Source: Bacteroidia bacterium (lineage in GTDB: Bacteria; Bacteroidota; Bacteroidia; J057; JANWXU01). From it: DNA of 37,441 bases. This document shows positions 10,496 to 32,200 of this stretch, piece after piece; the stretch's first letter is position 1; every line of letters starts with the position of its first letter. A program made the position numbers and the translations under genes. The notes under the pieces were generated by a model. It was not told the DNA's origin and searched no databases. It was given only the letters and a program-made list of their open reading frames with translations. The stretch is taken from positions 1 to 37,441 of the forward strand of contig JANWXU010000029.1 in assembly GCA_025057395.1 (NCBI GenBank), in the 5' to 3' direction.

Positions 10496-11236
10496 CTATA
10501 ATTCTTTAGCACGTAGAGCGTTACAATCCTGCTGAAAATCCTTATTTATTAAAATTGCTTCTTCGAATCCCTTTTTACGTAAAAGACAAGCAGGGCAATT
10601 TCCGCAACCTGCTCCCCATGCAAATTCTTGCCTCCTTCCTTCATAGCAAGTATGAGAGTGTTTTATAATAACTTCTAAGCACCCTAATTCTCGTGCTAAA
10701 AGCCAAGTTTGAGCTTTGGTTAAATTCATAATAGGCGTAATTATACGAAAGGGGTAATCCATACCCAAAGAAAGGGCCTTCTCAGCAGCTTCAACAAATT
10801 GCTGACGGCAGTCTGGGTAGCCGGAATAATCTGCTTGGCAAAAACCTGTAATAATATTATTTATTCCCAGGTGGTAAGCATATATAGCTGCATAATTTAA
10901 GAATAAAAGGTTACGACCAGGCACAAAAGTATTAGGAATACCCTTTTCTGTTTCCTGCTTAATTTCTATATTGGAATTAACCAAAGCATTCCCTCCTAGC
11001 TTTTGAAAATAATCTATTTGTAACTCTTCCCAATCTACCCCCGCAATCTTAGCAATTAATGCTGATTGCTGCCTTTCTACCCCATGACGCTGCCCATAAT
11101 TTACAAATAAAGCAAGAATGGGCTCATAGTACTGTTTAGCCCAATACAGAGCAGTTGTCGAATCTTGCCCTCCTGAAAATAACACAATCGCACCCTGTAA
11201 TAACCCTATTTTTTTACCATTCGTAAGATTCTCCAT
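10496..11236 (-). CDS. queC: QueC, 7-cyano-7-deazaguanine (preQ0) synthase
   Basis: 246 residues. QueC converts 7-carboxy-7-deazaguanine to preQ0 with ATP and ammonia, in queuosine tRNA-modification synthesis. The PP-loop ATP site SGGQDS is at 21-26, and the family segments NYGQRH, FVPGRNLLFLNYAA and GYPDCRQQFV follow. The C-terminal zinc cluster is intact, with Cys in SHTCYEG and three in GCGNCPACLLRK. The ATG at 11236 lies inside the purM 3' end, giving a 23-base overlap; no later start precedes the PP-loop, so the overlap appears real. It is the last gene of a probable three-gene operon. Confidence 0.95.
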   Translation of the reverse strand: MENLTNGKKIGLLQGAIVLFSGGQDSTTALYWAKQYYEPILALFVNYGQRHGVERQQSALIAKIAGVDWEELQIDYFQKLGGNALVNSNIEIKQETEKGIPNTFVPGRNLLFLNYAAIYAYHLGINNIITGFCQADYSGYPDCRQQFVEAAEKALSLGMDYPFRIITPIMNLTKAQTWLLARELGCLEVIIKHSHTCYEGRRQEFAWGAGCGNCPACLLRKKGFEEAILINKDFQQDCNALRAKEL

Positions 11237-12374
11237 TGTATAAAATAGTAAGAGTTTTATTAGGCTTAGGAGGCTGCACAGCCCCTATAATTTGAGCCTG
11301 ATATCCAAATTCTTGAAAAAGCGCAATAATCTCAACAGCTGCGTGCATATGTGTGTAAATTTCCAGCCTATGACCCATATTATAAGTTTGTAACATATTT
11401 TTCCAAGAAATAGATACCGTTTGTTGTATCACCCTAAAAATTGGAGGGGTAGCAAACAAATTATCCTTTAATATGTGAACCCCTTGAGCAAAACGCAAAC
11501 ACTTAGTTTGACCTCCGCCTGTACAATGGATAACCCCTCCTATATCATCTCGGTAGTTTTCCCACATTAATTTTAACACAGGCATATAAATACGCGTAGG
11601 AGAAAGAAGTGCTTTACCAATATTCAGTGGAGTTTCGGGCAGAGGGTCTAATAAGTTATTTTTCCCTGCATACACTAGTTCGTAAGGTAACTGCCCTTCA
11701 AAACTTTCCGGATAATTTTGTGCATAAGTTTTATTCAACAAATCGTGACGAGCATTGGTTAGCCCATTGCAACCAATACCACTGTTATACTCTTGTTCAA
11801 ATTTAGTTTGGCCAAAAGAGGCTACTCCTATAATCACCTGCCCTGGATGCAAGTGAATTTCTTTAATTTGATTAAGGGGAGCTCGTGCAGCTACGGTAAA
11901 GCCTATATCTAAAGTCCGTACAATATCTGCTACATCTGCCGTTTCACCTCCTGCATGTGCAACTTCAATATTCCAACTTGCTAACTTATCTATCCACTTA
12001 TAAGAACTAGCAATTAGTACCTCTAACACCTCACTAGGAATCCTAAATCTATTGCGAGCAATGGTACATGTAAAAGCTAAATGGTTACATACTCCAGCGC
12101 ACCCAATATCATCCAAATTCATAACTAAAGCATCTTGCACTATCCCCTCCCAAACGCTTATATCACCCGTCTCTTTCCAGTATAAATAAGCAATAATAGG
12201 TTTAGTACCAGCCGTATCAGAATGCATGATAAAAGCATTCTTCCCTGATTTATCTCCCAAATCAGGCAAAATTTTACAAAATGTTTTGGGTCTTAGCCCT
12301 TGCTCATATTTTGCAATAATGGTATGTAAATCACTTTTATCCCATGAAACCCCTCTTTCTAAGTAAGAATCCAT
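11214..12374 (-). CDS. purM: PurM-like phosphoribosylformylglycinamidine cyclo-ligase (AIR synthase)
   Basis: 386 residues from ATG 12374. An upstream ATG at 12416 would overlap the preceding gene and adds a segment absent from relatives; MDSYLERGVSWDKSDLH matches the usual Bacteroidota PurM beginning (YxxRGVS). The enzyme makes 5-aminoimidazole ribotide (AIR) from formylglycinamidine ribotide with ATP. Supporting segments: IMHSDTAGTKPIIAY, the metal/ATP-site region VMNLDDIGCAGV, EVAHAGGETADV, GVASFGQTKFE, and LLSPTRIYMPV followed by CTGGGQTK. Length and motifs fit the longer Bacteroidota-type PurM rather than the 345-residue enterobacterial form. It lies 23 bases after the TenI/ThiE-like gene and overlaps queC. 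Confidence 0.9.
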   Translation of the reverse strand: MDSYLERGVSWDKSDLHTIIAKYEQGLRPKTFCKILPDLGDKSGKNAFIMHSDTAGTKPIIAYLYWKETGDISVWEGIVQDALVMNLDDIGCAGVCNHLAFTCTIARNRFRIPSEVLEVLIASSYKWIDKLASWNIEVAHAGGETADVADIVRTLDIGFTVAARAPLNQIKEIHLHPGQVIIGVASFGQTKFEQEYNSGIGCNGLTNARHDLLNKTYAQNYPESFEGQLPYELVYAGKNNLLDPLPETPLNIGKALLSPTRIYMPVLKLMWENYRDDIGGVIHCTGGGQTKCLRFAQGVHILKDNLFATPPIFRVIQQTVSISWKNMLQTYNMGHRLEIYTHMHAAVEIIALFQEFGYQAQIIGAVQPPKPNKTLTILYNGESYEW

Positions 12375-12397
12375 AAGCCTTATAAAGTTAAAAAATT

Positions 12398-12952
12398 TTA
12401 ATTTTCCCAAAAACAAGAAATGCCCGCAATACCATAAGCACCAGCTTCCAGTAATAGCGGAATGTCTTTTAAGTTTACTCCTCCCAAAGCAAACACAGGT
12501 ATTTTAACTTGTGATACCCACTCTGCAAAAGTAGTGATTCCTAGTGGCTGAATTTCAGGATGAGTAGAAGTGAAAAATACAGGACTTAAAAAAGTATAAT
12601 CATAACCTTGAGCTTCAGCTTTTTTTAGCTCTTCCAAACTATGGCAAGATTTGCCCCGATATATAGCCAAGGTATCTAAAGTAGTATTTTCTTCACTTGC
12701 TTTGTAATGTATTACTTTAATAAAGGGTAAAGAAAAATACTCCATTCCTCCAATCCAAGTTATGCCACTATAACATTTTACTATTCGATTCCACTCATCG
12801 AGTGGAATATTATGCAGTAGATTTTTAGGGCGCAAGTAAATAGCATCAGCCCCCCTTTTAATAGCTTGGTCAAGCTTAATAGAAAATTCGTGCATAAAGA
12901 AGCTCTCGGGCACAATAGCAATTCGGGTAAAAGGTAACTTTTTACGCACCAT
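12398..12952 (-). CDS. TenI/ThiE-family protein (thiamine phosphate synthase or thiazole tautomerase)
   Basis: 184 residues from ATG 12952; a TTG two codons upstream is in frame but less likely. The fold signature of thiamine phosphate synthase/TenI is clear: SCHSLEELKKAEAQGYDYTFLSPVF, then TSTHPEIQPLG, IPVFALGGVN and GAYGIAGIS near the C-terminus, with an N-terminal barrel strand GADAIYLRPKN. It is shorter than typical ThiE, and I cannot see the full ThiE active-site set, so either TenI (thiazole tautomerase) or a reduced ThiE is possible. It is the first gene of the minus-strand set with purM and queC, 79 bases past the stop of the giant gene, with a terminator hairpin between them. Confidence 0.8.
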   Translation of the reverse strand: MVRKKLPFTRIAIVPESFFMHEFSIKLDQAIKRGADAIYLRPKNLLHNIPLDEWNRIVKCYSGITWIGGMEYFSLPFIKVIHYKASEENTTLDTLAIYRGKSCHSLEELKKAEAQGYDYTFLSPVFFTSTHPEIQPLGITTFAEWVSQVKIPVFALGGVNLKDIPLLLEAGAYGIAGISCFWEN

Positions 12953-12968
12953 GCCCAATTTATTTTAT

Positions 12969-13009
12969 GAAAAAAGCCCACCTCTTCTGCGCTATAAAGA
13001 GATGGGCTT
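12969..13009 (-). terminator. Intrinsic terminator of the giant surface-protein gene
   Basis: On the minus strand, AAGCCCA plus a purine/pyrimidine-rich extension at 13009-12996 pairs with the segment ending TGGGCTT at 12986-12974, with a loop of about nine bases, and runs into TTTTTT. It begins 23 bases after the giant gene's stop and ends 17 bases before the ATG of the next gene on that strand. Confidence 0.8.
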
Positions 13010-13031
13010 CTATTCATTAATTTATACTATA

Positions 13032-16000
13032 TTAGTTTTTCACTACCTTGATACTCCGAACACTTCTCTCGTCCGAAACTTTCAAAAAGTAAAATCCACT
13101 ACCATAGGACTGAAGATCCAAATACACTTCTACCCTATCACTAACTGCTCTAAAGATTTTCTCTAACAGCACTTTGCCACTTAGGTCTACTACTTCCACC
13201 TTAAATTCCCTAGATTGAATATTATCGATACTAATGTATAGCCCGCCTTTGGTAGGATTAGGATACACTTGCACCTCAAAATTAGTCTCTTCACTTCCCC
13301 ATCCTTCTCTAGGTCTCTGCGTAGTAAAACTCACTACGTTCGAAAAAGGCGTAAGTACTCCTGTTTGGAAAGAACATAAAGAACAGTTTGTTCTTATTCG
13401 CACCCCATACTCCTGGCCTGGCTGTAAATTACTAATTTGCAAAGAACTACCAGGATGCGGTACTAATTGCTGTGTCCAAGTAGCTGTGCTAGTATTAGCT
13501 AGCCCGTAAGAAACTATGTAGCATGCAGCACCACTTGTATTGGGTAACCAGCTAACATTCACCGTTGTAGGAGAAATATTTGTTACTTGAAGATTGGTGG
13601 GCGTTTGACATATACCGCCATCTCCTTCTTGGGCTGTAAACTGAACTGCGGGTGAAAATTCAGAACTCCCCTGCGTACCACATATTGCCCTTACTTGTAC
13701 TTCATAAGTACTGCCTGGTTGTAAGCCAGCAATGGCTTGAGTGGTAGCAGATAGATTAGTAAAACTGATAAAAGAACCATTTGGTAATAATCGATAACGT
13801 AATTCATAACTTGTAGCACCAGTTACTGAATTCCAAGCCACCGTAGCTTGCGTAGCACTACTACTTACCCGAACATTCTGAGGTACACTACACCCTGTTG
13901 TACTTCCTCCCCCTGATAGAGTTCTAAATGTTTGTACACTTCCACCACCACTTTGCCTGCCTCCCGAACAAACTGCTTTTACTCGTACTTCATACTCTGT
14001 ATTAGGCAGTAAGTTGGATAAAATTCTACTTGTACCACTTACCTCTGGAAGGGAAGTAAAATTAGCTTCTCCTACTCTTCTATATTCAAGAACATAGCCC
14101 GTTGCTCCATTAATGCTTCTCCAATTAACAGAAGCACTGTTGGAAGTAATAGAAGTAATATCTACTACCTCAGGACCGCTAAAACTAGCAACATTAGCAT
14201 TAGCTTGTGTACTGCAACCTGCAGCATCAGTAACTAAAACAGTATAGTTTCCTGCACTTAAATTAGTGAATTGGCCTGTTGTATTAGTAGAAAGAATAGT
14301 ACCCTCTCTTTGCAAACGATATTCATAAGGAGCCGTACCCCCTGAAACAGTAGCAGCAATAGAACCTGCGGCAGCGCAGGTTTCTGCCGTAGTATTTATA
14401 TTTATGCTTATATTACCCTGAGCCACGTTCACAGGTATCCTGCTACTTTCACAGGCTCCTCTAGCAGCCGCAACAAAAAAGGTAGAAAGATTAGTATTAC
14501 TTATAGTAAATATTGTATTTGTACTATTCACCAAGGGCGTTCCACCATTAGCTACACTATAAACTCTGAACTCAGAACCCGGTACGGGGCCAAAGGCAGC
14601 TGTAAAAGTAATAGTTCCGCCTCCCCCACAGCTACCACTTGCCGAAACCGTAGGAGGCGATGGGACTGTTGCACTTGCACTTACAGCTAAAGGAACCCTA
14701 TTACTTTCACACGCACCAATTGCAGAACTAAAATAGTAAGTAGCCGGTGGATTTGCACTTAGCTCAAATATAAAGGGTACAGTATTTCTCACTGCAAGCG
14801 GAGCACCCCCCACAGGGCTAGCATACATTCGAATTTCTGTTCCAGGAATAGATCCCATCAAAGCAGTAACGCCTACTGTAGCGCTACCACACGTTGCGTT
14901 ATTAGAAAGAATAGGCTCGCTAGGATTGGTAGTAGTAGAAGTAATACTTACAGGAATTCTTGTACTTTCACAGGTTCCCGAGCCACTAGCCACAAAATAG
15001 GTAGTAGCTGTAGTGGCGCCCGTTACAGTAGCAACAAAGGGTCCTGTAGCTACGGCTATGGGTGATCCCCCCGTAGGAACAGTATATACTCTAAGCTCTA
15101 TTCCCCCACCACTTGGCATGGTAGCAGAAATAGTAGCAAAATTATTACTTCCGCAAATACTGCCTGCTGCTGCAATAGGTGCACTCAACTCATTAGTAAT
15201 AATACCGGATACTGGAACCCAAGAACTACTACATCTTCCGTTACTTGCTTGAATAAAAAACTCACTAGTAGAGCTAAAATTAGAAACTGTTAATAAATAG
15301 GGTTCAGAGTTTCTCTGAGTAATTAGATTACCCTGAGCATCGAACAAACTTACCTGAATTCCTGTAGTAACGTTAGTCACTGTAAAAGTTATAGCACCAC
15401 TACCACAACGAGAAACATTTTCAGCCTGAGGCGCAAGAGGCGAAACACTACTATTAACGTTTACAATTACCGCCACCCGACTGCTTTCGCAGTTACCTGT
15501 AGCACTACTAACATAGTAAGTAGTTGTCGCATTAACAGGCTGCGTAGCTAAATGATATGGAAATGTATTATCTGTGCGTATAGGAGTTCCCCCAAAAGGT
15601 TGCTCGTATAGTCGCACCTCGTTACCTGCTCTTTCGCCCATTTGAACCGTGATTACAGCACCCCCATTACCACAGAAATTAAGATTAGAAGCAGACGGTG
15701 TAGAAGGTGGATTAACCACGCGAATGGGCAAAGGAATACGCTCACTTTCACAGTTGCCTATGGCAGAAGCGAGGTAATAAGAGGTATTAATGCTAGCATT
15801 GGTAATTGTGATAACATAAGGGGAAGTATTACTACTAGCTACTGGAATAGTAGCCGTAGGAGAATCGTATACCCTGAGCGAGCTACCACTTGGAGATCCC
15901 ATAATACCTGTAATAGTGACGGGTCCATTTCCACATCTAGAAATTTCTCCCGTGCCAAATATAGAAGGATTACCTGGAGTAGAACTTACAGAAATAACTA

Positions 16001-19000
16001 TCGGTATACGAGAGCTTTCGCAAGCAGCAGCACCTACTACCAAAGTGCTACTTAAATAATAGGTTGTATTTGTAGTAAGCCTAGGAGTAGTAAAAATAAA
16101 AGGTGCTTCAGTTTTGAATAGTAAATCTCCGCCTGTAGGTTGATTGTATAACCGAAACTCATTGCCTGGCACAGCACCACTTGCTGCTGTAATAGTTACA
16201 CTACCACTTCCACAACGACTAAAGCTAGGAGCAGAAGGAGCAGAGGGAGCCTGTAAAATATTAGCTGTAACACTCACACGTGGACTTTCACAATTTCCAT
16301 TAGCAGCAGCCACAAAATAAAACTCAGTAGTGCTTAAATTGGGCGTAACAAGAGCCCCAGGATTAGCGTTGGATATACTAATAGGGCTTCCTCCAGTACT
16401 TACCGTATAAAGCCGAAATTCAGAGCCTGCAGGTATGCTCATGCTAGGAGTAAAAGTAACAGCTCCTGCCCCACAACGACCGGCATCATTAACTACAGGA
16501 GCCGCAGGAATTGCAAGTACACTTCCTACTACTTGTCTTCTAGGACTTTCACAAGTTACATTACCACCTACTCGTACTACACTAGCAAAGTAAGTAACAC
16601 TAGTAGTAGCAGAAATTGTAAAAAATGCCGGATTGTTAGAACTAGAAAACAGCATATTTCCTCCTACAGCAGCATCATATAGCCGAATTTCACTACCTGC
16701 AATGCCACCCATATTTGCTGTAAAGGTAAGTACCCCGGCATTACAACGCGCTACGTCATTGATAAGCGGCATACTAGGCGTTTCAACAATAGTGATGGGC
16801 GCCAAAACCTTATTACTTTCGCAGTTACCAATTGCCGAAGCTACAAATATAGTAGTATTAACAGCTGCGTTAGTGGTAAAGGTGTAAGGGGAAGTAGTAG
16901 AAGTACTCAATAAATTTAAATTAGCATCATACCAGCGGATTTCTTCGCCTACTTCTTGACCCATTAGAGCCGTTAGCGTAACAAGCCCAGCCCCACAGCG
17001 TCCAACAGCTCGTGTAATAGGATCAGAAGGCCTAGGCGCAACAGCCCCCACCACACTAATACGCTCACTTTCACAATTTCCTATTGTACTAGAAATATAA
17101 AATAATGTATTAGTGCGGATATTGGCTGCTGTTAAAGTATAAGGAAAAGTATTATCCTCATCAACCAAGGTACCGTTTACATCGTAAAGTCGAACAGCAG
17201 AACCGGGATTAGCACCTACATTAGGGGAGAAAGTAATAGGCCCTTCTCCACAACGAGTTACTCTCCCAACAATAGGTGTTCCAGGTTTATTAACAAGTGT
17301 TACTACCACCGGTACCCTTTCACTTTGACAATCTCCTAAAGCACTTTCTAAGTAGTAAGTACTACTACTACTTATCACTGGAACTGTCAAAAGGTAAGGA
17401 CTAAAAGTGGCAACTGCTAAAAGGCTTCCGCCCCTAGGCGAATCATATAATCTCAGCTCTGCACCCGGCGTAACACCCATGGTGGCAGTAATTACAGCCA
17501 CTGAAGTACCACAAACAGTAATATTACCCGCACTTGGACGTGAGGGGGCTGTAAGCACGCGCGCTAAAACTGGAGTAAAATCACTTTCACAACCCTCTTG
17601 AGAAGCAGAAATATAAAACGTAGTACTTGTATTTATCACAGGAGTAGTTATCGTTACGTTATTTCCCGTAACAGGGGGCACTAAGGGAGCAACACTATTA
17701 GGAGAATTATATAAACGGTAGGTAAGAGTTATATTTTCTGGACTCCTAACACTAAAAGTAACGACTCCACTTCCACAAACAGTAGCTGCAGTAGCAAAGG
17801 GAGCAGCAGGCTTAGAAAGTACAGTAACCACTACTGGAGTACGATTACTTTCACAATTAGAATTGGCACTTGCTACAAAAAATGTAGTAGTTGCACTTAA
17901 GTTAGGTATTGTTAACTCATAGGGATTTATACTGCTACTTGCAACTAAACTGCCTCCTTGTACTGCGTTATATAGGCGCATTACAGTCCCTGGAACTTCC
18001 GTCATTTGAGCCGTAATTACTACTCTCCCTTCACCGCAACGCGTAGGAGCTATTACAAAAGGAGGTGAAGGTAAAGAATGAATAGTAACTACCACTTGTA
18101 TTCTTTCACTTTCACAGTTTTGATTAGCACTGGATACAAAATAGGTAGTTGTGTTAGCTACTAAGGGAATTGTGAAAGTATAGGGAGAAGTATTATCGAC
18201 TAATAGCGGTGTACCCCCTAATTGTTGAACATATAGGCGCATTTCTTGCCCTGCATTTGCCCCCATTAAAGCAGTAATAGTAATAGGCCCACTTCCACAA
18301 CGCGATACGGAAACTGCAGAAGGCACCGAGGGACCTGGCGTTACTTCCGCTGTAACTCTTATTCTTGGGCTAGCACATCCCGTTAATGTATTAATGCTTT
18401 CCACAAAATAACTATTAGTAAATGGAAGAATAGGCGTTCGAAGTTCAAACGGGAAGGTATTATCACTTGTAATTAAATTACCCCCCACTTCTGCATCATA
18501 TAAACGCATTTCGGTTCCTGGAATTTGACCCATAGTTGCACTAAATGTCACGGCTCCTTGCCCACATCTTGCAATAATACTATTACTAATAATAGGAAGA
18601 CTTGGCAACGGATGAATAGTAGCCACGGCTGTGCTCCTAGGGCTCACACAACCCGTGCGGAAATTAATAGTTTCAAAGTAAAAAGTAGTAGTAGTGGTAA
18701 CTCCTGTAACGCCCAATTCATAAATAGGGCTATTATCGGAGGCAATTATTATACCTCCTACCGGAGTCGTATACAACCGAATCTCTAGATCAGTTGTGTT
18801 TCCAAATAAGGTAGCTGTAAAAGTTAAGCCTCCGACTCCACAGCGAGAAATGTTACTAACAGTAGGCTCTGCAGGTAAAGGTAATATATTGATACTTACT
18901 GGAACTCTTTCCGAAGAGCATCCTGTTTGACCATTTAATATTCCTACAAACAAGTTAGTGGAATTGTTTAGTAAGGGAGTATTCAATTCAAAGGGCGGCA

Positions 19001-22000
19001 CAGCATCTTCAGCAATTGGCGTACCTCCTACAAGGTCTGTGAATAGTTGAGCTCGTACTCCTATAGTAAAAGAAGCACTTACAGATAGAGTTACCGTACC
19101 TGCGCCACATCGATTAGAAGCTTGTACTACAGGAGGCTGAGGAAGTGGATGGATAGTAGCCACTACTTGTACTCGATTACTTACGCAAGCTGGTACAGTT
19201 AATAAATTGGCACTTTCTACAAAGAAAGTAGTTGTAGTAGCTAAAAACCCAGTGCTGAACTCAAAGGGAGAAGTATTATCTACTAAAATAGGCTGCCCGC
19301 CTACTTGTGTGGTGTAAAGGCGAAGCTCTGTTCCTGCCGGAGATCCCATTAGAGCAGATAAGGTAAGAATACCACTACCACAGCGAGCCACCGAAAAAAC
19401 TTGAGGAGCCCCCGGTAAAGTATTGATAGTTGCAGATACAGGTAGCCTACTACTTTCACAACCCGTAAAAGGATTAGCAGAAGCAATGTAGAAGATAGTA
19501 GAGGTATTAATTTCAGGAGTTACAAGTAAGTAGGGGGCTGTACTACTTGCAAATAGGGGTATTCCCCCTGTTTGAGTATCATATAAGCGAATTTCAGTTC
19601 CTTCAGGCGAACCCATTAGTACGGTTAATGTTAAGCGCCCGCTACCACAACGAGCCCCAGTAGAAGAAGCATTGGGTACGCCTGGAATAGGGTTAATCGA
19701 TACGCTCACAGGAGAGCGGGAGCTTGTGCAGCCTGTTGAAGTATTAGTACTTTCTATATAAAGAATTGTTGAAGTAGGTAAGCTTGAAGTGGTAATAATA
19801 AAAGGAAAGCTAGAAGCACTGCCCAGCAAAGTACCCCCAGTAGGAGTATTAAAAACTCGCACAAGATTAGCTTCTGAACTAACATTTTGCACTGTAAGAG
19901 TTACTGCTCCAACACCACATCTGCTTACTGCTGCTGCCGTAGGGGGCTGTAAAGTACTGTTAACAAAACCCACAATAGGAACCCTATTGCTCTCACACCC
20001 TGTTTGTGAAGAAAAAGAAGCCAAATAAAAAGTTGTTGTACTACTAATAGTAACAGGTAACTCATAAGGGGGAGTAAAATCAGAAGCAATTACATTACCC
20101 CCTGTCTCTGTATCATACAAGCGAATTTGATTCCCTGCTGGGGTTCCCATTAAAGCGGTAAAAACGATAGTTCCGGGACCGCATCGAGTAATATTAGATG
20201 CATTTGGAGTACCTAGCTGGGAATGTACTGTAACTACTATGCTACTACGCGGACCAATACAGCCCGTAGTTGTGTTAATTGCTTCTATAAAATATGTGGA
20301 AGTAGTAAAAACATTGGGTATAACAAGCTCAAATGGCTCAGTATTATCTACTGCGACTGGAGTTCCACCACCTGAACTTAAATAAAGGCGCATTTCGTCT
20401 CCTACTACTGCTCCATTCTGGGGATTTAAAGTTACTGGCCCTGCGCCACAACGCGTTACACTATTAGCTACAGGAGCAGAAGGATTAGGAACTACTGGAA
20501 CGGTCACGACAGTGCGCTGGGAAGCACAGCTACTAATTAGGTCCATACTTTCCACAAAGAAGCGAGTAGTAGTAAATATTTCCGGTGTTGCAAGCTCATA
20601 AGGAGCAGTATTATCAATTGCTACAGGTATACCCCCTGTGGCTGTGGTATATAAGCGAATCTCACTACCTGGCACGAGACCCATCTGAGCTGTAATAGTA
20701 GCAATACCATTTCCACATCTTCCTAAGCTAGAAGCTGTAGGAGTACTGGGTATAGGATTAATACGTGCTACTACCGCTACTCTACTAAGTTCACACCCTT
20801 GATTACTTACACTAGCTACATAATAAGTAGTAGTAGTAGTAAGCGAGGGAGTAGTAAGCAAGAATGGAGCCTGACTAGCACTAGCAATAATATTATTTCC
20901 TTGGGCATCAGCATAAAGCCTAATAGTAGCTCCTGGTGGGTTACCCATTGTAGCAGTGAAAGTGACCACTCCCGGCCCACAGCGCGTTACGTTATTAACT
21001 GTAGGTACGCCCGGCGAGGGAGTAGTAATTAAATTTACTTGTACAGCTGTTCGCGTTGCACTTGTACAACCTGTAATTAAATTGGCTGCCTCTAAGAAAA
21101 AAGCTGTAGGACCACCAATTTGGGGCGTAAATAACAAGTAAGGAGGGTTTGCAGCAACAGATTCGGGAGAACCTCCAGTAGAAGTTGTGTATAAGCGAAT
21201 TTCAGTACCTGCAGGGTTGCCCATATGAGCAGTAATCACTACAGAACCACCACTCGAACAAACTGTTACGCTAGAAGCCGTAGGAGCACCTGGCAATGGA
21301 TTTATTGTAGCAACAACTGGTACTCTTACGCTTTCACAATTAGTACTTGTACTAAAGCTAGCCAAATAAAAAGTGGTAGTTGTATTCAAAAATGGCAGAG
21401 GTAATGTATAGGGGGGCACAAGCGCCAAAGCTAATGGATTATTACTAGTAGGAGAGTCGTATAGCCGCATCTCATTTCCTGCCGGAGAGCCCATAGAAGC
21501 AGTAAAGGTCAAAAGTCCACCGCCACAACGAATAACCTCCGGCGCACTAGGAGCCCCCGGCGCTGGAATAACATTAGCTATCACGCTTTGTCTACCGCTT
21601 TCACACCCAGTAAAAGAATCAAAACTACTTATAAAAAAGGTAGTAGTAGTACTAATAGTGGGGGTAGTAACAGTATAAGGTACAGAAGAAGCTGTTACAA
21701 CTGGATTAGCAGCCGTAGCAGTAGAATACAAACGTATTGTATTTCCTGCGGGAGCACCCATGGTGGCTGTAAAAGTAACCACCCCATTACCACATCTTTG
21801 AACAGTAGCAGCGTTTGGTAAACCAGGCACAACAGTATTTATAGTAACTGTAACAGGAACTCTGGCACTACGACAATTAGTTTGAGTATTTATACTTTCT
21901 ACAAAAAATGTTGTTGTTGTAAAAACCACGGGGGTGGTAATTTCATAAGGCGCTACATTATCCATGCCCATAGGATTACCACCTACACTTTGATTATAAA

Positions 22001-25000
22001 TAGCAATTTGATTTCCCGCAGGGAAACCCATCATTACAGAAATCGTTACAACGCCAGCTTGACAACGAGCCACAGGGCTTGCATTCGGTGTCCCCGGTGC
22101 CGAGTTTATTACAACTTCTACTCCACTGCGATTACTTTCACAACCAGTACTAGAATTAAAACTAGCCAAATAAAAAGTGGTAGTAGTGCTAACAGAGGGA
22201 GTAGTAATGGTAAAAGGAAAAGCAGAAGAACTTGCAAGAGGCGTTCCTCCTTGTTGAAGTGCATAAAGCCGAGCTTCATTTCCCCCCGTTACACCAATGT
22301 TAGGAGTGATAACCACTGAACCCGGATCACATCTACTAACCATCATCGACTGCGGGGTAAGAGGACTACTATTTACTTGTACTACCACAGGGGTTTTAGG
22401 ACTTACACAGTTTGTCCCTGATATTGCACTTTCTAAAAAGAAGGTAGTAGTAGTATTTATTTGGGGTGTTACAAAAGTATAAGGAGGAGTAGTAGCTTCT
22501 GCAAAAGGAGCACTTGCAGAGGGAGTTAAATACATACGCATAATAGTTCCTGGGATAAGCCCCATTTGTGCCGTAAGGGTTACCAAACCTGGTCCACACC
22601 TGGAAGTATTGGAAGCTACCGGCGCAGAAGGACTAGGAATTGCTAAAGCCACCACCTGAGTACGACTAGATTCACACCCCGTCTGAGAATTAAAGCTTGC
22701 AATAAAAAATGTGGTAGTAGTAGTAAGCAATATTCCGCTATTAAGTAAATAAGGAGCACTAGTAGCTACTTCAATTGGAAATGCAGCTGTAGAACTTGTA
22801 TACAGTCGAATTTCATTTCCGGGAGGAATTCCCATAGTAGCGGTAAATGTAACGGAGCCAAAGTCGCAACGCGACACAGGCAAAGCATTAGGCTGCCCCG
22901 GTAGTGGATTTATAGTAACAACAACAGGAGTACGCGTAGGGCTAACACATCCGCTGCTCGAGCTAAAACTTTCTACATACCATGTAACATTACTACTTAC
23001 TGTTTGAGTAAATTCATAGGGTGGAATGTTATCAATAGCAACTGGCGTTCCTCCTGTAGGGAACACATATAAACGCATTACGTCGCCGGGTACTGAACCC
23101 ATAGTAGCTGTAACTGTAACAGGACCCGGACCACACCTAGCAACATTATTTACTAGTGGCGCACTTAAAGCCGAAGTAATTTCTGCTACGGCAGCTACAC
23201 GGGAGCTAGCACAATTATTCTGTGAATTAAATGTACCAAAATAAAATGTAGTAGTAGTAGAAACATTGAATGTAAAAGTAAAAGGAGGATTTTCTTTAGC
23301 AGCTAATAAAGTTCCTCCACTTGGAGAATCCCATACCCGAATTTGGTCACCGGAACTACCAATAATAGCAGTAAAGGTAACCTTTCCGGGTTCACATCCG
23401 GCAACATTTGCTACGGTAGGGGCTCCTACACTAGTGCCTACCACAGCATTCACAGGAACACGTGCACTTGTGCACGAAGAAATGGCACTCTCGATGAAAA
23501 ATACAGTATTAGCAGTTATCGAAGGAGTAGTAAGCTCGAAAGGTTCTGCATTATCTATGGCAATAGGGAATCCTCCTGTTTGAGTTGTATATAAACGCAC
23601 CTCTGTGCCTGGTGGAGTACCCATATTAATAGAAAAAGTAACTTGCCCTGGCCCACATCGAATTACCTCGCTAGCCGTAGGATTAGCAGGAATAGAGGCT
23701 ATGTTTACTACTACGGGTGTTCTGCCGCTTTCGCAAGTAGTAATATTATTATAAGCTGAAACATAAAAAGTAGAAGTAGTAGAAACATTATTCAGTGGAA
23801 TAGTTAGTGGGGCGGGCACTGATACAAGTAGCGTTCCCCCCACAGGAGCATTATATAACCTTATCTCATCCCCTGCAGGAAAACCCATCTGTGCTGTAAG
23901 AGTAACAGGACCTGCCCCACAACGAGTAAAGTCTACAGCGCTAGGATTACCAATTTGTGGATTAATATTTACTGCAGCAGGCACACGATTACTTTCACAA
24001 CCAGTAACCAAATTAAAAACAGAAAAATAAAAGGTAGAAGTAGTGGTTATGTTAGGAGTAGTAAACTCATAAGGAGAAGTATCGTCTGTTTGTACAGGTG
24101 TTCCTCCAGTAGGCTGAGTATACATTCGAATTTCAGTGCCCGGAGGCGTTGGCATTATAGCTGTGAAAGTAGAAACTCCCGTACCACACCGCTGTAAAGT
24201 AGTTAATATAGGACTTGCCGGAATAGGATGAATCACCGCAACCACAGAATCTATAGGACTTTCACAACTACCAAATTGATTAATTGTAAAGACCTTCAAG
24301 TAAAAAGTAGTAGTAGTTACTACCCCTGGTACTGTAAAAACATAGGGTGGTGTATTATCGGTAGCTATTAAAGAAGTGGCATTAGCATCATTATATAGTC
24401 GCACTTCATTACCTGGAGGATTCCCTAGCAAAGCAGTAATGGTTATAGTTCCGGGCCCACAACGCTGTATTTGTGGCATAACAGGCTTGCCAGGATTCCC
24501 TACCGCCGATGCTTTTACCTTAATCCTTCTACTTTCACACCCTCCATTAGCTTGGTTGTATACACTTGCAATATAAAAATCTTGCGTTCCATTCAAAAAA
24601 GGCGTGGGTAGAAGATAAGTTTGCGGAGGAGTTATAGAAAGGGGGGTATTATTTTCTACTATAGGAACTCCTCCGGTTGGAAGAGTATATAGGCGCATAA
24701 TTTGGCCTGGCGGTACCCCCATAGCGGCAGTAAAAGTTACTACCCCAGGCTGGCATAACAATACATCCTGCGCTGTTGGGATTTCTGGACAATCTGAGAA
24801 AACAGCAAAAGCCCTATCTGTTAAGGGTAAAGAAAAGTTAAAACTAGCCGTCTGCTTTTGATAGGGATTTCCTCCCAAAGCCGGACCTGCAGGCGAAGAG
24901 GGCATATCTTGCCATCCTGGAGGATTAGCAGAAGCATCGTAATAGCGCATTCTGCTTTGGTCGCGATTAAAGGCAGTCCCCTCATTCATTTCTTTCCATT

Positions 25001-27701
25001 GCAATTTTATAGTCAAAATATGATCGGGAACCGAATTGGGATTGCAAGCTACTAGCGGCGGGCAAGGGGGACCCGGACAAAGCGGAGCAGTACACCCTTC
25101 ATTTATAAACCAAGTAAATCGAGCAACATCTTTCCTTGGGTTAGTAGTAGCAGTAGGAGGATCAAATACTTCATCTCTGACTCGTATGCCAATTTGGTCG
25201 GCATAATGATTAGGACTAGTTTGGTTATTAATTATTGTAGCAGGAGCATGAAATGCCGGCGTACCCACCGGATAATTCAGTGCATTTTGATAGCCACCTG
25301 CTCCCCCTACACATTCCCAAATAAACCGACCATTTCCATTCGTAATTACATAGCTTGAATCATTACCTATGGAAATTGTTGGCAAATTAGGCGGAACTAA
25401 ATCGCAAAGAATATTTATATTAAAGTTTCCTATATCAATTTTACCCTTTAGTAGGCTAAGGGAATTAAAAAGGCGTATATTTGTCAAGAGTATCAACTTT
25501 TGGCTACTGTAGCTAGTGTTCATGAATAAATTATCAATTTTAGGGCTTCCATTGCTCGCAAATTTGGTAGTTCGAACTACTGTATTCTGATCACCCTCAT
25601 TATAATGATACACATTCCCTCTATCATAAATAAAAACCGTACCATTTTCTACTACCAACGAGCAGGCCTCATTAATTCTTCCAAGGTTCCCAAGCTTTGC
25701 ATTCAATGGAGGGTCAACTACAGGGCCTGGGCAGAATAAACCAGCGGTACCCGGTGATTGAGGGCTATACCGGTCTACATTCAGATAGCTAAAATCTCCT
25801 TGAAAACCGTTATTGGGATTATTATCGATATCTGTTGCGGTATGAAGCCAGGGTGTATAGTCCACATTAGGAAAATTAAAAAAGTTTAAGTCTGCCGGAG
25901 CCAAAGGCGAGATAGTAAACCCAAAAGGATTGCAACTACCACTGGCTACATTTTGTGAACCATCTACGTAATTAGCTATATTGGTAGGATCGTTATCCCC
26001 CCACCAATTTCCACTAGCATCTATAATAGCTTGTAAGTCGTTATTAGGAAATGGATTCGAAAAAAACGAGTTATTTATAATTGCTACCAAGTTACCTGCT
26101 AAGTTATTGTTATTGATCTTTATATTCGAAGTGTTGTTAGCAGTAATTTTAGGTGTACCTGGGAAGGTACCTATACGTACTGCGTTCCTGTAGTTAGTAA
26201 TAAAATTTTCAGTAATTTTAATATTTTGTGGGGCTACTAATTCTTCGATGTGTACAGCAGCAGCTACATTAAAAGGAGCGTTAATACCAGGCCCTGTAAA
26301 ACGATTCTGAGTAATATTCCATGCTCCTACTTGGGTAGGTACGCGATATTCTATTCCTACAGAATGAAAGTCTCCTGCGCCAGTAACTACCGGATTCCCC
26401 ACATATTTGAATTGATTTTGTCGAAAAGTATTTACTCCCATCACGTTTAAGAAAAAGCAACCCCAATTTAGCCAAGTGTAATTATTAGGCTGAGGTGGAG
26501 CACTAGGATAGATAGGAGAGTTACTAGGCAAGGCTCCTGTAGCAAGGTGAAATTCGAAGTGGTTATTTTCTATTACAAAATCTGAAAGCTGAACGTTATT
26601 AAAAGCACTAGTAGCGGGTGCCCCACCATTAGGGGTTATCCTAATAAGTCTTCCCCCAAAGCCTCCATTGGTATTATGTATTGTGATACCCGGTGTAGTA
26701 GTGATATTAATATTAGTTGCACCTACCACTGTTGTACTAGTGCTGTACTGATTGGTATTACGAAAAGAATTATGGCGAATAAATACATTCCGAATAGCTC
26801 CATTAGGGTTATTAGTACGAGAAGTAACAACAAGATTAGAATGTCGGCTATATTCTATTTTATTGTGGCTAATAGTAGTATTATCACTAATAACAGCAGA
26901 AGTAAAATGATTAAGCATTATTTCTATACCAATTTCGCCGCTATTAGTAGGAGTACCTAAAATTTCATTCCACCTAATATGAGAATTTTTAGGATTTTGC
27001 AGGTGAATTCCGCAATAATTTGAATTATTCATTATAATACGATTGTAACTAATATCCACCTTTTCAAAGGTGCTTGCCCCTGCAGCGGGGTTACCTACTC
27101 CTACAAAAATGGCATACAACAAGTTTTCAAAAGTATTGCGGCGAATAATAATGCTATCTACAGGAGTATTAATACTAAAGTTCATCACAAAGCCCGTACC
27201 ATTAGCATTAGAATTGGGTATAGTTGCTAAAGCAGTATTAATCCCCATATTTACTGGGGATACTGCTGAACCAAAGTCTTTGATAATCAAGCCCTCTATG
27301 CGCACCTTTCCTCCTGTAGTTGAGGGGTTAACTCCAAAACAATACGCATTAACCCCTTGACCATCAATTATAGGTGCATTATTACCTGCACCAGCCCCAC
27401 TGGTGCTTGTATCTCCAATAATTCGTACCCTGGGCACAGTAATCTCCATATTTCGATTATCCACTCCTGTATACACCCCCGGGGCTATGTATATAGTTTT
27501 CCATCCTGTGAAGCTACTTGCATTAGCAGCTTGAATAGCCTGTTTTATAGATTTAAATGGATTTTGCTGGGTGCCGTTTCCTATACCTGGCAGCGGATTG
27601 TTGACGTTTACAAACCACGTTTGTGCTTGCCCTTCCCTTACCCCCACAAAAGAATAAAGGGCAAAAAGAATAAGTAAAGTTAAAGTATAAAGCTGATTCA
27701 T
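13032..27701 (-). CDS. Giant multidomain T9SS-secreted surface protein with 39 Ig-like repeats
   Basis: 4,889 residues from ATG 27701; an ATG at 27737 is in frame but the signal peptide (MNQLYTLTLLILFALYSFVG) begins at 27701. Domains in order: a right-handed parallel beta-helix starting with a DUF1565-like FKSIKQAIQAA and YIAPGVYTG (about 28-600); a beta-rich spacer with YVITNGNGRFIWECVG and YPVGTPAFHAP (about 660-970); 39 Ig-like repeats resembling the CHU_C-associated type (about 972-4430); a SprB-like repeat with SGGTAPYEY (about 4430-4512); three fibronectin type III domains (about 4513-4795); and a T9SS type A sorting domain, VYPNPTKGG to SIKVVKN. Signal peptide plus sorting domain imply export through Sec and T9SS to the surface. 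An adhesive or structural fibre is inferred; no catalytic site is evident. The beta-helix could bind or cleave polysaccharide, but I see no active-site evidence. Confidence 0.93.
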   Translation of the reverse strand: MNQLYTLTLLILFALYSFVGVREGQAQTWFVNVNNPLPGIGNGTQQNPFKSIKQAIQAANASSFTGWKTIYIAPGVYTGVDNRNMEITVPRVRIIGDTSTSGAGAGNNAPIIDGQGVNAYCFGVNPSTTGGKVRIEGLIIKDFGSAVSPVNMGINTALATIPNSNANGTGFVMNFSINTPVDSIIIRRNTFENLLYAIFVGVGNPAAGASTFEKVDISYNRIIMNNSNYCGIHLQNPKNSHIRWNEILGTPTNSGEIGIEIMLNHFTSAVISDNTTISHNKIEYSRHSNLVVTSRTNNPNGAIRNVFIRHNSFRNTNQYSTSTTVVGATNINITTTPGITIHNTNGGFGGRLIRITPNGGAPATSAFNNVQLSDFVIENNHFEFHLATGALPSNSPIYPSAPPQPNNYTWLNWGCFFLNVMGVNTFRQNQFKYVGNPVVTGAGDFHSVGIEYRVPTQVGAWNITQNRFTGPGINAPFNVAAAVHIEELVAPQNIKITENFITNYRNAVRIGTFPGTPKITANNTSNIKINNNNLAGNLVAIINNSFFSNPFPNNDLQAIIDASGNWWGDNDPTNIANYVDGSQNVASGSCNPFGFTISPLAPADLNFFNFPNVDYTPWLHTATDIDNNPNNGFQGDFSYLNVDRYSPQSPGTAGLFCPGPVVDPPLNAKLGNLGRINEACSLVVENGTVFIYDRGNVYHYNEGDQNTVVRTTKFASNGSPKIDNLFMNTSYSSQKLILLTNIRLFNSLSLLKGKIDIGNFNINILCDLVPPNLPTISIGNDSSYVITNGNGRFIWECVGGAGGYQNALNYPVGTPAFHAPATIINNQTSPNHYADQIGIRVRDEVFDPPTATTNPRKDVARFTWFINEGCTAPLCPGPPCPPLVACNPNSVPDHILTIKLQWKEMNEGTAFNRDQSRMRYYDASANPPGWQDMPSSPAGPALGGNPYQKQTASFNFSLPLTDRAFAVFSDCPEIPTAQDVLLCQPGVVTFTAAMGVPPGQIMRLYTLPTGGVPIVENNTPLSITPPQTYLLPTPFLNGTQDFYIASVYNQANGGCESRRIKVKASAVGNPGKPVMPQIQRCGPGTITITALLGNPPGNEVRLYNDANATSLIATDNTPPYVFTVPGVVTTTTFYLKVFTINQFGSCESPIDSVVAVIHPIPASPILTTLQRCGTGVSTFTAIMPTPPGTEIRMYTQPTGGTPVQTDDTSPYEFTTPNITTTSTFYFSVFNLVTGCESNRVPAAVNINPQIGNPSAVDFTRCGAGPVTLTAQMGFPAGDEIRLYNAPVGGTLLVSVPAPLTIPLNNVSTTSTFYVSAYNNITTCESGRTPVVVNIASIPANPTASEVIRCGPGQVTFSINMGTPPGTEVRLYTTQTGGFPIAIDNAEPFELTTPSITANTVFFIESAISSCTSARVPVNAVVGTSVGAPTVANVAGCEPGKVTFTAIIGSSGDQIRVWDSPSGGTLLAAKENPPFTFTFNVSTTTTFYFGTFNSQNNCASSRVAAVAEITSALSAPLVNNVARCGPGPVTVTATMGSVPGDVMRLYVFPTGGTPVAIDNIPPYEFTQTVSSNVTWYVESFSSSSGCVSPTRTPVVVTINPLPGQPNALPVSRCDFGSVTFTATMGIPPGNEIRLYTSSTAAFPIEVATSAPYLLNSGILLTTTTTFFIASFNSQTGCESSRTQVVALAIPSPSAPVASNTSRCGPGLVTLTAQMGLIPGTIMRMYLTPSASAPFAEATTPPYTFVTPQINTTTTFFLESAISGTNCVSPKTPVVVQVNSSPLTPQSMMVSRCDPGSVVITPNIGVTGGNEARLYALQQGGTPLASSSAFPFTITTPSVSTTTTFYLASFNSSTGCESNRSGVEVVINSAPGTPNASPVARCQAGVVTISVMMGFPAGNQIAIYNQSVGGNPMGMDNVAPYEITTPVVFTTTTFFVESINTQTNCRSARVPVTVTINTVVPGLPNAATVQRCGNGVVTFTATMGAPAGNTIRLYSTATAANPVVTASSVPYTVTTPTISTTTTFFISSFDSFTGCESGRQSVIANVIPAPGAPSAPEVIRCGGGLLTFTASMGSPAGNEMRLYDSPTSNNPLALALVPPYTLPLPFLNTTTTFYLASFSTSTNCESVRVPVVATINPLPGAPTASSVTVCSSGGSVVITAHMGNPAGTEIRLYTTSTGGSPESVAANPPYLLFTPQIGGPTAFFLEAANLITGCTSATRTAVQVNLITTPSPGVPTVNNVTRCGPGVVTFTATMGNPPGATIRLYADAQGNNIIASASQAPFLLTTPSLTTTTTYYVASVSNQGCELSRVAVVARINPIPSTPTASSLGRCGNGIATITAQMGLVPGSEIRLYTTATGGIPVAIDNTAPYELATPEIFTTTRFFVESMDLISSCASQRTVVTVPVVPNPSAPVANSVTRCGAGPVTLNPQNGAVVGDEMRLYLSSGGGTPVAVDNTEPFELVIPNVFTTSTYFIEAINTTTGCIGPRSSIVVTVHSQLGTPNASNITRCGPGTIVFTALMGTPAGNQIRLYDTETGGNVIASDFTPPYELPVTISSTTTFYLASFSSQTGCESNRVPIVGFVNSTLQPPTAAAVSRCGVGAVTLTVQNVSSEANLVRVFNTPTGGTLLGSASSFPFIITTSSLPTSTILYIESTNTSTGCTSSRSPVSVSINPIPGVPNASSTGARCGSGRLTLTVLMGSPEGTEIRLYDTQTGGIPLFASSTAPYLLVTPEINTSTIFYIASANPFTGCESSRLPVSATINTLPGAPQVFSVARCGSGILTLSALMGSPAGTELRLYTTQVGGQPILVDNTSPFEFSTGFLATTTTFFVESANLLTVPACVSNRVQVVATIHPLPQPPVVQASNRCGAGTVTLSVSASFTIGVRAQLFTDLVGGTPIAEDAVPPFELNTPLLNNSTNLFVGILNGQTGCSSERVPVSINILPLPAEPTVSNISRCGVGGLTFTATLFGNTTDLEIRLYTTPVGGIIIASDNSPIYELGVTGVTTTTTFYFETINFRTGCVSPRSTAVATIHPLPSLPIISNSIIARCGQGAVTFSATMGQIPGTEMRLYDAEVGGNLITSDNTFPFELRTPILPFTNSYFVESINTLTGCASPRIRVTAEVTPGPSVPSAVSVSRCGSGPITITALMGANAGQEMRLYVQQLGGTPLLVDNTSPYTFTIPLVANTTTYFVSSANQNCESERIQVVVTIHSLPSPPFVIAPTRCGEGRVVITAQMTEVPGTVMRLYNAVQGGSLVASSSINPYELTIPNLSATTTFFVASANSNCESNRTPVVVTVLSKPAAPFATAATVCGSGVVTFSVRSPENITLTYRLYNSPNSVAPLVPPVTGNNVTITTPVINTSTTFYISASQEGCESDFTPVLARVLTAPSRPSAGNITVCGTSVAVITATMGVTPGAELRLYDSPRGGSLLAVATFSPYLLTVPVISSSSTYYLESALGDCQSERVPVVVTLVNKPGTPIVGRVTRCGEGPITFSPNVGANPGSAVRLYDVNGTLVDEDNTFPYTLTAANIRTNTLFYISSTIGNCESERISVVGAVAPRPSDPITRAVGRCGAGLVTLTALMGQEVGEEIRWYDANLNLLSTSTTSPYTFTTNAAVNTTIFVASAIGNCESNKVLAPITIVETPSMPLINDVARCNAGVLTFTANMGGIAGSEIRLYDAAVGGNMLFSSSNNPAFFTISATTSVTYFASVVRVGGNVTCESPRRQVVGSVLAIPAAPVVNDAGRCGAGAVTFTPSMSIPAGSEFRLYTVSTGGSPISISNANPGALVTPNLSTTEFYFVAAANGNCESPRVSVTANILQAPSAPSAPSFSRCGSGSVTITAASGAVPGNEFRLYNQPTGGDLLFKTEAPFIFTTPRLTTNTTYYLSSTLVVGAAACESSRIPIVISVSSTPGNPSIFGTGEISRCGNGPVTITGIMGSPSGSSLRVYDSPTATIPVASSNTSPYVITITNASINTSYYLASAIGNCESERIPLPIRVVNPPSTPSASNLNFCGNGGAVITVQMGERAGNEVRLYEQPFGGTPIRTDNTFPYHLATQPVNATTTYYVSSATGNCESSRVAVIVNVNSSVSPLAPQAENVSRCGSGAITFTVTNVTTGIQVSLFDAQGNLITQRNSEPYLLTVSNFSSTSEFFIQASNGRCSSSWVPVSGIITNELSAPIAAAGSICGSNNFATISATMPSGGGIELRVYTVPTGGSPIAVATGPFVATVTGATTATTYFVASGSGTCESTRIPVSITSTTTNPSEPILSNNATCGSATVGVTALMGSIPGTEIRMYASPVGGAPLAVRNTVPFIFELSANPPATYYFSSAIGACESNRVPLAVSASATVPSPPTVSASGSCGGGGTITFTAAFGPVPGSEFRVYSVANGGTPLVNSTNTIFTISNTNLSTFFVAAARGACESSRIPVNVAQGNISININTTAETCAAAGSIAATVSGGTAPYEYRLQREGTILSTNTTGQFTNLSAGNYTVLVTDAAGCSTQANANVASFSGPEVVDITSITSNSASVNWRSINGATGYVLEYRRVGEANFTSLPEVSGTSRILSNLLPNTEYEVRVKAVCSGGRQSGGGSVQTFRTLSGGGSTTGCSVPQNVRVSSSATQATVAWNSVTGATSYELRYRLLPNGSFISFTNLSATTQAIAGLQPGSTYEVQVRAICGTQGSSEFSPAVQFTAQEGDGGICQTPTNLQVTNISPTTVNVSWLPNTSGAACYIVSYGLANTSTATWTQQLVPHPGSSLQISNLQPGQEYGVRIRTNCSLCSFQTGVLTPFSNVVSFTTQRPREGWGSEETNFEVQVYPNPTKGGLYISIDNIQSREFKVEVVDLSGKVLLEKIFRAVSDRVEVYLDLQSYGSGFYFLKVSDERSVRSIKVVKN
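13325..14164 (-). repeat. Three fibronectin type III domains of the giant protein
   Basis: Three consecutive segments show the FN3 pattern: SVNWRSINGATGYVLEYR with LLPNTEYEVRVKAVC; TVAWNSVTGATSYELRYR with LQPGSTYEVQVRAIC; and NVSWLPNTSGAACYIVSYG with LQPGQEYGVRIRTNC. Each ends in a Cys, unusual for FN3 in general but common in T9SS cargo proteins. They connect the Ig-like array to the C-terminal sorting domain. Confidence 0.85.
14412..24786 (-). repeat. Array of 39 tandem Ig-like repeats inside the giant gene
   Basis: Counted by hand on the translation: 39 units averaging about 88 residues (266 bases). The consensus is roughly RCGxGxVTxTAxMG, PxGxEIRLY, GGTP, PPYxxTTP, TTTTFY and CES-R, then a proline-containing linker such as PGxPN. 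Every unit has one Cys near its start and one near its end; 26 of 39 start with RCG. Units 1-24 (18318-24786) mostly carry a loop like NxxTGCES, while units 25-39 (14412-18317) mostly carry the shorter xGNCES form. The DNA of the units has diverged, with no long identical stretch seen, so the array is old rather than freshly expanded. Confidence 0.9.
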
Positions 27702-29202: not shown

Positions 29203-32200
29203 TTATCTCTCTCTAATAAAATGATGCATCCACTGCTTCCCCCCTGCGTTTACTATTATAAAATACATACCACTAGTAAGGTCTGTAGTATTTATTGATA
29301 TAACAGGTGCAGGTCCAGGAACCTCCCCTAGCGGGTTTACTTTTCTTTCTTTTCTTACTTCTTTTCCTAATGCATCTAAAATTGAGATATCAATACTTTT
29401 AGCTACAACCAGTTGCTCATCTGGAATATATACATACAACGTATTTTGTGTTGGATTAGGGAAAACTACTAACTTTTCACTACCTGAAGCAGTCAATTCA
29501 TCAAGACTTGTTACAAAATTTGTCCTCCTCCTACAATTATTTGCGTCGGTAACAGTTACTGAATAATTTAACCCAGTAGGCACGTTATCTACAAACCAAG
29601 TTCTTGCATTATTACTCCATTCGTAAGTATAGGGAGGAGTTCCTCCAGATACTGTTAGTTCTATTCTTACTCGATCCGCAGATTGGGGAATAATGCTATG
29701 GCAAATATTAAGCTGAGGATTTAAACTAACATTTACCCTTGAAAAATTACTATTCACGCATCCTCTTTCACCTTGAATATCATTACTATCATAAACTTTT
29801 ATAGTGTATAAACCTGCAAGTGTTGGTATACGTTCACCCTGCATACTAAAGGGATAGGTACGGGTATCATTTTGCCAATGCTCATAGACTTCTACCAAGT
29901 AACTAGGTCTACCCCCCGCAGCTAAAATCGAAATATGCCCACCTTGCAATATATTCCCCCCAGACTCTACCCAATCATAACAGTTAGAACCACTTTGCTG
30001 GGCAGCTAAACGTACAATAGGAAAATTATCAATTCTTATATTTGTAGTCTTAGCACACCCGTTTTCGTCCAAAACTTCTATTGCATAATTGCCCGCTACT
30101 ACAGGAAAAGAATAGTGGTAAACTCCATCTCGCCCTACTGGGTTCACTAAAGGCGTTCGATAGGGAGGAACTAAGTTATTATTTTCATACAAAGATACAT
30201 TATAAGGAGGCATGCCCCCTTTAACTTCAACGTGAATTTGAGTAGTTGGAACTTCGTATATAGAAGGGGAACAAATTGTTGTTTTCTCTGCAGTAGCTTT
30301 CAATTCTAACTCTGGGTCTTGCGAAATTACCAAACGATGAGGATAGCAATATTGGCTAACTCGCAAACAGGCTGTATCTGCCCCTGCTAGGCAACCTGTA
30401 AACGTAAGGGGGGGCAGTACGCATAAGCGATATTCGCCTCTTGGCAAAGGAAAAGTACTAACTTGATTTATTGGGGTTATACCTGCAGCCGTAGTTCGAA
30501 ATACCAGTCGATTAGTATTAAAATCTCTTATTTCATACATACAGTCTAGACAATCGCACCTAATACCTGCACTTGTTTCAACAACAGGGTACTGAACTAC
30601 TTTGATTCTACCCCTATTTTGAGTATTACACGTAGCTGGCTCTGTGGTCACCGGTATAGCGGTAGTCAAAGTATCAAAGTAAAATGAATTAAAGGGAACA
30701 TGAAAACTCTTGAAAAATCTTGTGCGCGAGATCGAATCTAAAACTGCTATTATATAAAATTTTCCTCCCTCTACGGTAAATTGCCCTGTATTGTTTCGAA
30801 ATGAAGTAGTTCCACTCGGACCACGATAGGGAGTACCATTTAAATTCAAAATTTCAAACTGATACCTTCCTTGAAAAGGGCGGTTAGGATTAGGACCTCT
30901 TTTTACATTTAAATTTACATGTCTTACTTCATCAACTTGTATACTGCCCAACCCTCCGGCACATGGATTTTTTTGGCTAGTAATAAAATTCTGAATTGGT
31001 TCATTAAACCCCGTACTTCCTTGGTAGTTACAACAGCTCAAACAATCTAGAGTATTTACTGTTGTTTTAGGTCCTTCAGCCCTACAGCCATTTTGGTCTT
31101 CTACTATTATGTAATATTCCCCCGGTTGAAACAAGGTGAGACGATTACCCACTGGTTGTACATTTGTGAGCACATCTGGGCCTTTATTATTAGCTTGTGG
31201 ATTTTGAATATAATAAAGAGGATAAGCCTTTAACTCTTGATACCTCCTAGCATTAACATCAAAAACTATAGTACCATAAGTTGTGCACGCATCCCAGAAA
31301 GGAGTGTTGACAGCCTCAGAGCGACTAATACTAATAGGATGGGGTTCTTCTAGATTAATAGAAGACACTGTATAAACGTGATTATTAGCATCTTCAATTT
31401 CTACGGAATAAATTCCTGGACCAAGATTGCGAATTTCCGGATCCAAGCCTGCTTGTAAAAGCCGCCCTCTACTATCGTACCACTTGTAAGTATAGGGAGG
31501 CACACCGCCTGAAGCAACTGCTCTTATTATACCACTATGGCTTAGCGAACGATTAGGTGATCGATCATTTAGTACATTGCATAGAATAGGTCGAACAATC
31601 GTATGAGAACCTAACAATTGCGGAGGTGCTACTAAAGAAAAAGAAAATTCATTAGAGCATTCCGGAGATGAAAAGTCTGTTATTTTAACCGTATAATCAC
31701 CTGCACGTAAGCCACTTAGAATCATTTTATCTTGAAAATTGGGTATACTTATAAGGCGTCCTCCTACGTTAGAATACCAATTGATTCTATAAGGCAAATT
31801 AGGGCGACCCGGAACTCCGCCCGAGATACCCACAATACGAATTGCTCCATCATCTCCTGTTAACTTACTAGGAGGAGTTACATGAGAGACAATACGAATA
31901 GGTTCAGGCTCCGAAATACCAAATCTATGTTTCAAAGTGCAGCCCTTGCTATCTTCCACTACTAATTCGTAGGTACCTGCCACAATTCCTACTGTTTGAC
32001 GTCCTTGGGTTAGGGTTGAAACTTTTACTATTTGACCTTGGCTGGTAATCGTACCTCTGCTCGAAAATGTGTTGTTCAACGTTAAAGTATAAGAATAGGG
32101 AGGAACTCCTCCTACTACCCCAAATTCAATATCCCCCGCTACTTCTCCTGCACAATTTATCCGCATTCCTGCAATTTTACTTAAAACACCCGGTGCAAAG

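Follow-up and report, generated by a model that had tools for sequence, protein, structure and literature searches.

A giant Ig_7 repeat protein, probably a type IX-secreted surface fibre, is one of a large family of duplicated giants in a Bacteroidia genome

The grappling hook protein GhpA is 5,898 aa in length and forms a heptamer, and the GhlA fibre is built of 49 beads and is about 180 nm long (PMC13319060). Among cargo of the type IX secretion system (T9SS), proteins with a type A tail use PorV and are either statically anchored or released (PMC12618676). Bacterial proteins of more than 5,000 aa reach a maximum of 31 per strain and are mostly non-homologous (PMC11573180). Giant repeat adhesins are usually met singly and are regarded as length-variable. 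The gene described here belongs to a family with a link to the grappling-hook fibres whose structures were solved recently, and it is this family of giants, rather than the architecture or length of any single protein, that is notable.

The giant gene lies within the window (the whole stretch of 37,441 nucleotides that was analysed), and its parts are collected in Table 1. Its frame runs without a break from an ATG at 27701 to a stop codon ending at 13032, and a longer ORF call differs from this 4,889-aa frame by an upstream TTG only. A sequence-only reading had proposed one frame with a beta-helix, 39 Ig-like repeats, a SprB repeat, three FN3 domains and a T9SS tail, and this was confirmed by Pfam, NCBIfam and AlphaFold. 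Profile searches of the translation placed Ig_7, SprB, fn3 and Por_Secre_tail all above their curated cut-offs. The pectin-lyase-like label did not hold at the profile level, as no Pfam model names the beta-helix of the head; its fold rests on AlphaFold and PDB fold matches. The sorting domain is found at the extreme C-terminus (TIGR04183 and PF18962, 41.6 and 48.3 bits, above cut-off), and the Pfam match to Por_Secre_tail, which passes the curated cut-off, spans residues 4812-4881. A conserved NWWGDN motif closes the beta-helix head, and stretches resembling the head-stalk connector (residues 661-968) occur in other T9SS proteins. A similar hydrophobic leader opens each of the six head-sharing paralogs.

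Table 1. Parts of the giant gene, with positions in the window.
Feature	Position	Strand	Basis or remark
Giant T9SS fibre gene	13032..27701	-	4,889 aa; about 498 kDa without signal and tail
Sec-type signal peptide, residues 1-27 (MNQLYTLTLLILFALYSFVGVREGQAQ)	27621..27701	-	Read by eye from the translation
Head, predicted right-handed parallel beta-helix, residues 28 to about 545-660	25722..27620	-	AlphaFold and fold matches; common to five paralogs
Head-stalk connector, residues 661-968	24798..25721	-	Poorly modelled
Stalk, 39 Ig_7-type repeats, residues 969-4431, one Cys pair each	14409..24797	-	Pfam, Cys-pair cutting, structure prediction
SprB repeat, residues 4436-4463	14313..14396	-	Pfam PF13573, 31.0 bits against a cut-off of 28
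Three fibronectin type III domains, residues 4510 to about 4795	13317..14174	-	Pfam PF00041, 99 bits, three stretches; PDB FN3 matches
T9SS type A sorting domain, residues 4812-4889	13035..13268	-	TIGR04183 and PF18962 above cut-off

The host genome encodes one SprA (2,148 bits), three PorV-family proteins and five PorP-family matches, four of them above cut-off, together with at least 150 type A tails. The giant thus shows the features of T9SS type A cargo, namely a C-terminal sorting domain, a signal peptide (read by eye) and a genomic SprA and PorV, and the proposed T9SS export route is supported by the type A tail above cut-off and the genomic SprA and PorV. It does not resemble an SprB-type gliding adhesin, as the tail is of type A and PorP/SprF gave zero matches within the window. 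Our working model, and the most likely one, is a static arm on the cell surface that presents a binding head. Two further genes for type A cargo are nearby, one encoding a 1,029-aa SprB-repeat protein (29203-32292) and the other a protein of 281 aa whose tail is its sole known domain (33424-34269).

When cut at its regularly spaced Cys pairs, the stalk divides into exactly 39 repeats, which measure 84-98 aa and contain one Cys pair each. Over the full translation Ig_7 (PF19081) scored 1003.8 bits against a cut-off of 27.3, with 37 stretches passing individually, and these scores exclude a chance match. Any two repeats are on average 37% identical and neighbours 38%, and Tandem Repeats Finder detected no tandem repeat at the DNA level, indicating an old array rather than a stutter of the assembly. 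Repeats 11-13 were predicted as consecutive beta-sandwiches (AlphaFold on the 45-row alignment A2, mean pLDDT 97.5). The Cys pair is present at about 100% across some 1,110 domains of the host genome, and each bead is probably locked by a disulphide. The pair was dropped as a special feature of these beads because other Ig_7 arrays also have it. Scaled by the length of GhlA, 39 beads would measure about 143 nm, with the FN3 domains and the head extra. By this analogy the stalk may be roughly 140-160 nm long, in keeping with the earlier estimate of over 100 nm if extended.

The head was modelled by AlphaFold on an alignment (A1) with its five paralogs, six sequences in all. Strand-turn coils extend over about residues 27-545, with block pLDDT mostly 60-90 and a few low loops; the model overall has a mean pLDDT of 55.1 over 1,000 residues and a pTM of 0.57, and is poor beyond residue 545. 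All listed PDB fold matches are, judged by their names, known or probable right-handed beta-helices, and the head is predicted to be a right-handed parallel beta-helix of the pectin-lyase-like kind. No close orthologue of the head was found in the order, the top match in other genomes reaching 63 bits. A contig scan for named relatives, with the host's own genome left out, returned just generic NWWG-motif beta-helix proteins from many phyla, and this line was rejected.

In the host genome (4,080,717 bases in 244 contigs, 96% complete, 0.3% contamination), an Ig_7 search gave at least 150 scored matches on about 45 long ORFs. A profile built from the 39 repeats of the window gene was then used to scan 80 stretches, selected to surround long ORFs that had matched Ig_7 or T9SS models, 1.34 Mb including the window, and detected 1,121 repeat domains. 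Within these selected stretches at least 54 ORFs carry five or more repeats, jointly more than 1,000, and total 186,945 aa, equal to 561 kb or 13.7% of the genome as a lower bound. Half of them (27 of 54) are complete and the other 27 are cut by contig ends, and we infer a gene number between about 40, the inferred lower figure, and 54. Thirteen ORFs, two of them cut by contig ends, reach 5,000 residues or more, and 11 of the 13 carry nine or more beads of the window type. Grouped by head, the 40 ORFs with four or more beads fall into the six-member beta-helix group, a loose group of 25 joined by weak similarity, one pair and seven singletons. Pfam matches to the heads include DUF7948 with SBBP beta-propellers, IgGFc_binding, GEVED, DUF2341 and PKD, with LTD and matrixin weak.

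Some other features of the scanned stretches are recorded here. ORFs of at least 1,000 aa total 894 kb, or 22% of the genome. The longest two (C88:18484-41388 and C167:9745-33567, 7,635 and 7,941 aa) end in T9SS tails and have 0 and 2 beads, so that this genome must encode giant cargo of at least one other kind. On contig C88, a 26-bead giant overlaps a second frame with five beads and a tail (3956-5737 and 5683-18210, locus L021), a frameshift that is either a sequencing error or a broken gene.

The six beta-helix paralogs were compared repeat by repeat, all against all, after removal of each repeat's mean similarity. Offset 0 was the best diagonal in 15 of 15 pairs, with a permutation p of 0.004 or less in 14; the pair C211-C15 was not significant. 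The window gene (contig C166) and its nearest paralog (C111) align gap-free over 39 to 39 beads at a mean identity of 46%, with a score of 2.90 against a permutation maximum of 1.27, and C180 and C222 align over 31 to 31 beads. Against five giants with unrelated heads, the window gene gave chance scores only. Bead counts are not constant, with 33 in C224 and 32 in C211, while C8 and C15 reach contig ends after 22 and 24 beads. Late beads followed by the same C-terminal region are found on two fragments (C38 and C44), which are probably the missing halves of C8 and C15 in one or the other pairing. Because repeat i matches repeat i across paralogs, we conclude that the family grew by duplication of the whole giant gene, and that the copies then kept their beads nearly unchanged in number and order as sequence identity dropped to about 46%. 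The sequence-only reading thus stood in its architecture, repeat count, export route and stalk of over 100 nm, but not in singling out the specific architecture and length as notable, since five paralogs in the same genome have the same head, C111 also has 39 repeats and dozens share the stalk. As to whether an identical architecture had already been characterised, it does occur in paralogs, none of them characterised.

Beyond the host, 22 genomes of the order were compared, among which the host is the sole member of its taxonomic family. First-look counts, which are unscored candidates and show relative load rather than domain number, gave 2,073 Ig_7 candidates in the host versus 38-381 in each of the 21 others, and 784 candidates with beads of the window subtype versus 5-73 in the other genomes listed. 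Of 395 genomes of the class, just 12 had any match at 1e-30 to beads of this subtype. From these counts the Ig_7 expansion appears to be lineage-specific. A genome of the same order (G002, 56% complete) has ORFs of 4,954 and 4,521 aa on contigs C80 and C57 (loci L176 and L177) with Ig_7 beads of a different subtype. The giant gene sits between a divergent ruvB and a gene for a thiamine-phosphate-synthase-like protein, and it was not found in the stretches examined beside ruvB in eight relatives. An AIR-synthase-like protein with the N-terminal half of PF00586 only is encoded at 11214-12416, and its gene overlaps both queC and that for the thiamine-phosphate-synthase-like protein; the three form an unusual group immediately downstream of the giant. 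Promoter and terminator scans gave chance-level results, and the window has zero Rfam matches and zero tRNA genes.

Several other explanations bear on what the head and stalk do. Most of the top fold matches of the head are carbohydrate-active beta-helix proteins (lacto-N-biosidase LnbX, DFA-IIIase, GH87 glucanase and RbmB lyase), as would be expected of a lyase or hydrolase on a long arm, with the fibre acting as a tethered polysaccharide degrader. However, the matches also include phage tailspikes and the adhesin PfbA, TM-scores to the targets are low (0.2-0.6), and Pfam assigns no enzyme family to the head. Moreover, residues 114 to 568 include no position that is acidic (Asp or Glu) in every one of the six heads, R351 and H446 being the sole invariant charged or His positions there, and a binding role is thus more likely than a conserved glycosidase or lyase site. 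The six heads are diverged and the alignment gaps roughly placed, and a shifted active site could be hidden. An enzymatic head appears quite improbable to us, and the head sequences suggest that it binds a ligand rather than catalyses. The stalk, in turn, could point to a GhpA-type grappling hook, copies of which would bundle into a thick filament with tips that snare the flagella of prey, as happens in ixotrophic predation. Fragments of GhpA (Aureispira) make up all eight of the best PDB fold matches of the three-bead model, the stalk profile matches GhpA at 1.8e-122 over 23 stretches (next best 0.0023), and the size and T9SS secretion of GhpA fit as well. Yet a generic Ig_7 array used as a control (L188, a 1,207-aa ORF of another genome of the order) matches GhpA at 5e-99 as a single sequence, whereas the three window beads as a single sequence give zero GhpA match; since an ordinary array matches better than the window beads, the relation is one of the Ig_7 domain family and not orthology. 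The head profile likewise has zero matches among PDB sequences at E<=1, GhpA included. TssC, of the type VI secretion system of ixotrophy, gave no match in the genome, but a control search was equally silent. We regard a hook of the GhpA type as unlikely, and prey capture as in Aureispira as a possibility.

The reality of the giants and the cause of their constant length must also be weighed. That half of the 54 ORFs reach contig ends and that a frameshift interrupts a gene on C88 might suggest mis-assembled or collapsed repeats in a fragmented genome. But the complete ORFs run for up to 6,651 codons without an internal stop, the repeats are diverged (37% identical in the window gene, matched repeat domains never above 72%), completeness is high and contamination low, and the register is conserved between unlinked contigs, which mis-assembly cannot yield; an artefact is scarcely credible. 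A different matter is whether repeat number is under selection at all, or was simply frozen when the beads became too dissimilar to recombine. The latter fits with a fibre family of the kind we favour, and we give it even odds. Neighbouring repeats are no more alike than any two, a DNA tandem repeat is absent, and register conservation would arise without a length ruler; on the other hand, the paralogs with 33 and 32 repeats indicate that losses occur and that the array is not wholly immobile.

Taken together, we favour a single-chain T9SS surface fibre with a beta-helix binding head on a 39-bead stalk, one of a modular duplicated family, with a probability of about 0.7. The giant would be exported by Sec and carried across the outer membrane by the type IX translocon (SprA with a PorV shuttle), and the type A tail would be cut off, leaving the C-terminal FN3 end on the surface of the cell. 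The stalk of 39 stiff Ig_7 beads would then keep the N-terminal head roughly 140-160 nm out, where it may bind a glycan or surface polymer. The family would be modular, one stalk type being combined with many heads, and would have grown by duplication of whole giant genes, with bead number and order changing little later as sequences diverged. A bolder extension sees a bacterium coated with a repertoire of dozens of length-set fibres, exchangeable grappling or capture arms that bear individual heads on a common type of disulphide-locked Ig stalk, made by whole-gene duplication and with length under selection; we offer it tentatively and think it rather doubtful. At least 13.7% of a 4-Mb genome is given here to one stalk type under many heads, and paralogs that are about 46% identical agree in the number and order of their beads. 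This makes a selected versus a frozen stalk length directly testable in paralogs and strains.

Compared with known systems, all 39 repeats belong to Pfam PF19081 Ig_7 (CHU_C associated) and differ from it in copy number and genome-wide expansion. GhpA of Aureispira sp. CCB-QB1 (PDB 9flp and others) is likewise a T9SS-secreted giant with the same Ig_7-type stalk fold, homologous at the profile level; however, similarity between the heads is undetectable, the repeats are of a different subtype and the host genome has dozens of paralogs. GhpA forms a heptamer with a hook, whereas the present giant is described from its sequence and predicted structure. The Flavobacterium gliding adhesins SprB and RemA are also large T9SS surface adhesins, and the giant contains one SprB repeat. 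It shares the type A tail with RemA, whereas SprB carries a tail of type B and uses a PorP/SprF shuttle; the stalk of the giant is Ig_7. GhlA of Litorilinea aerophila (PMC13319060) is similarly a single giant chain of beta-sandwich beads forming a surface filament, but has DUF11 beads and a trimer model and belongs to the Chloroflexota. Finally, many giants per strain are known from the huge-protein survey (PMC11573180), where they are mostly non-homologous, whereas here 11 of the 13 share one stalk type.
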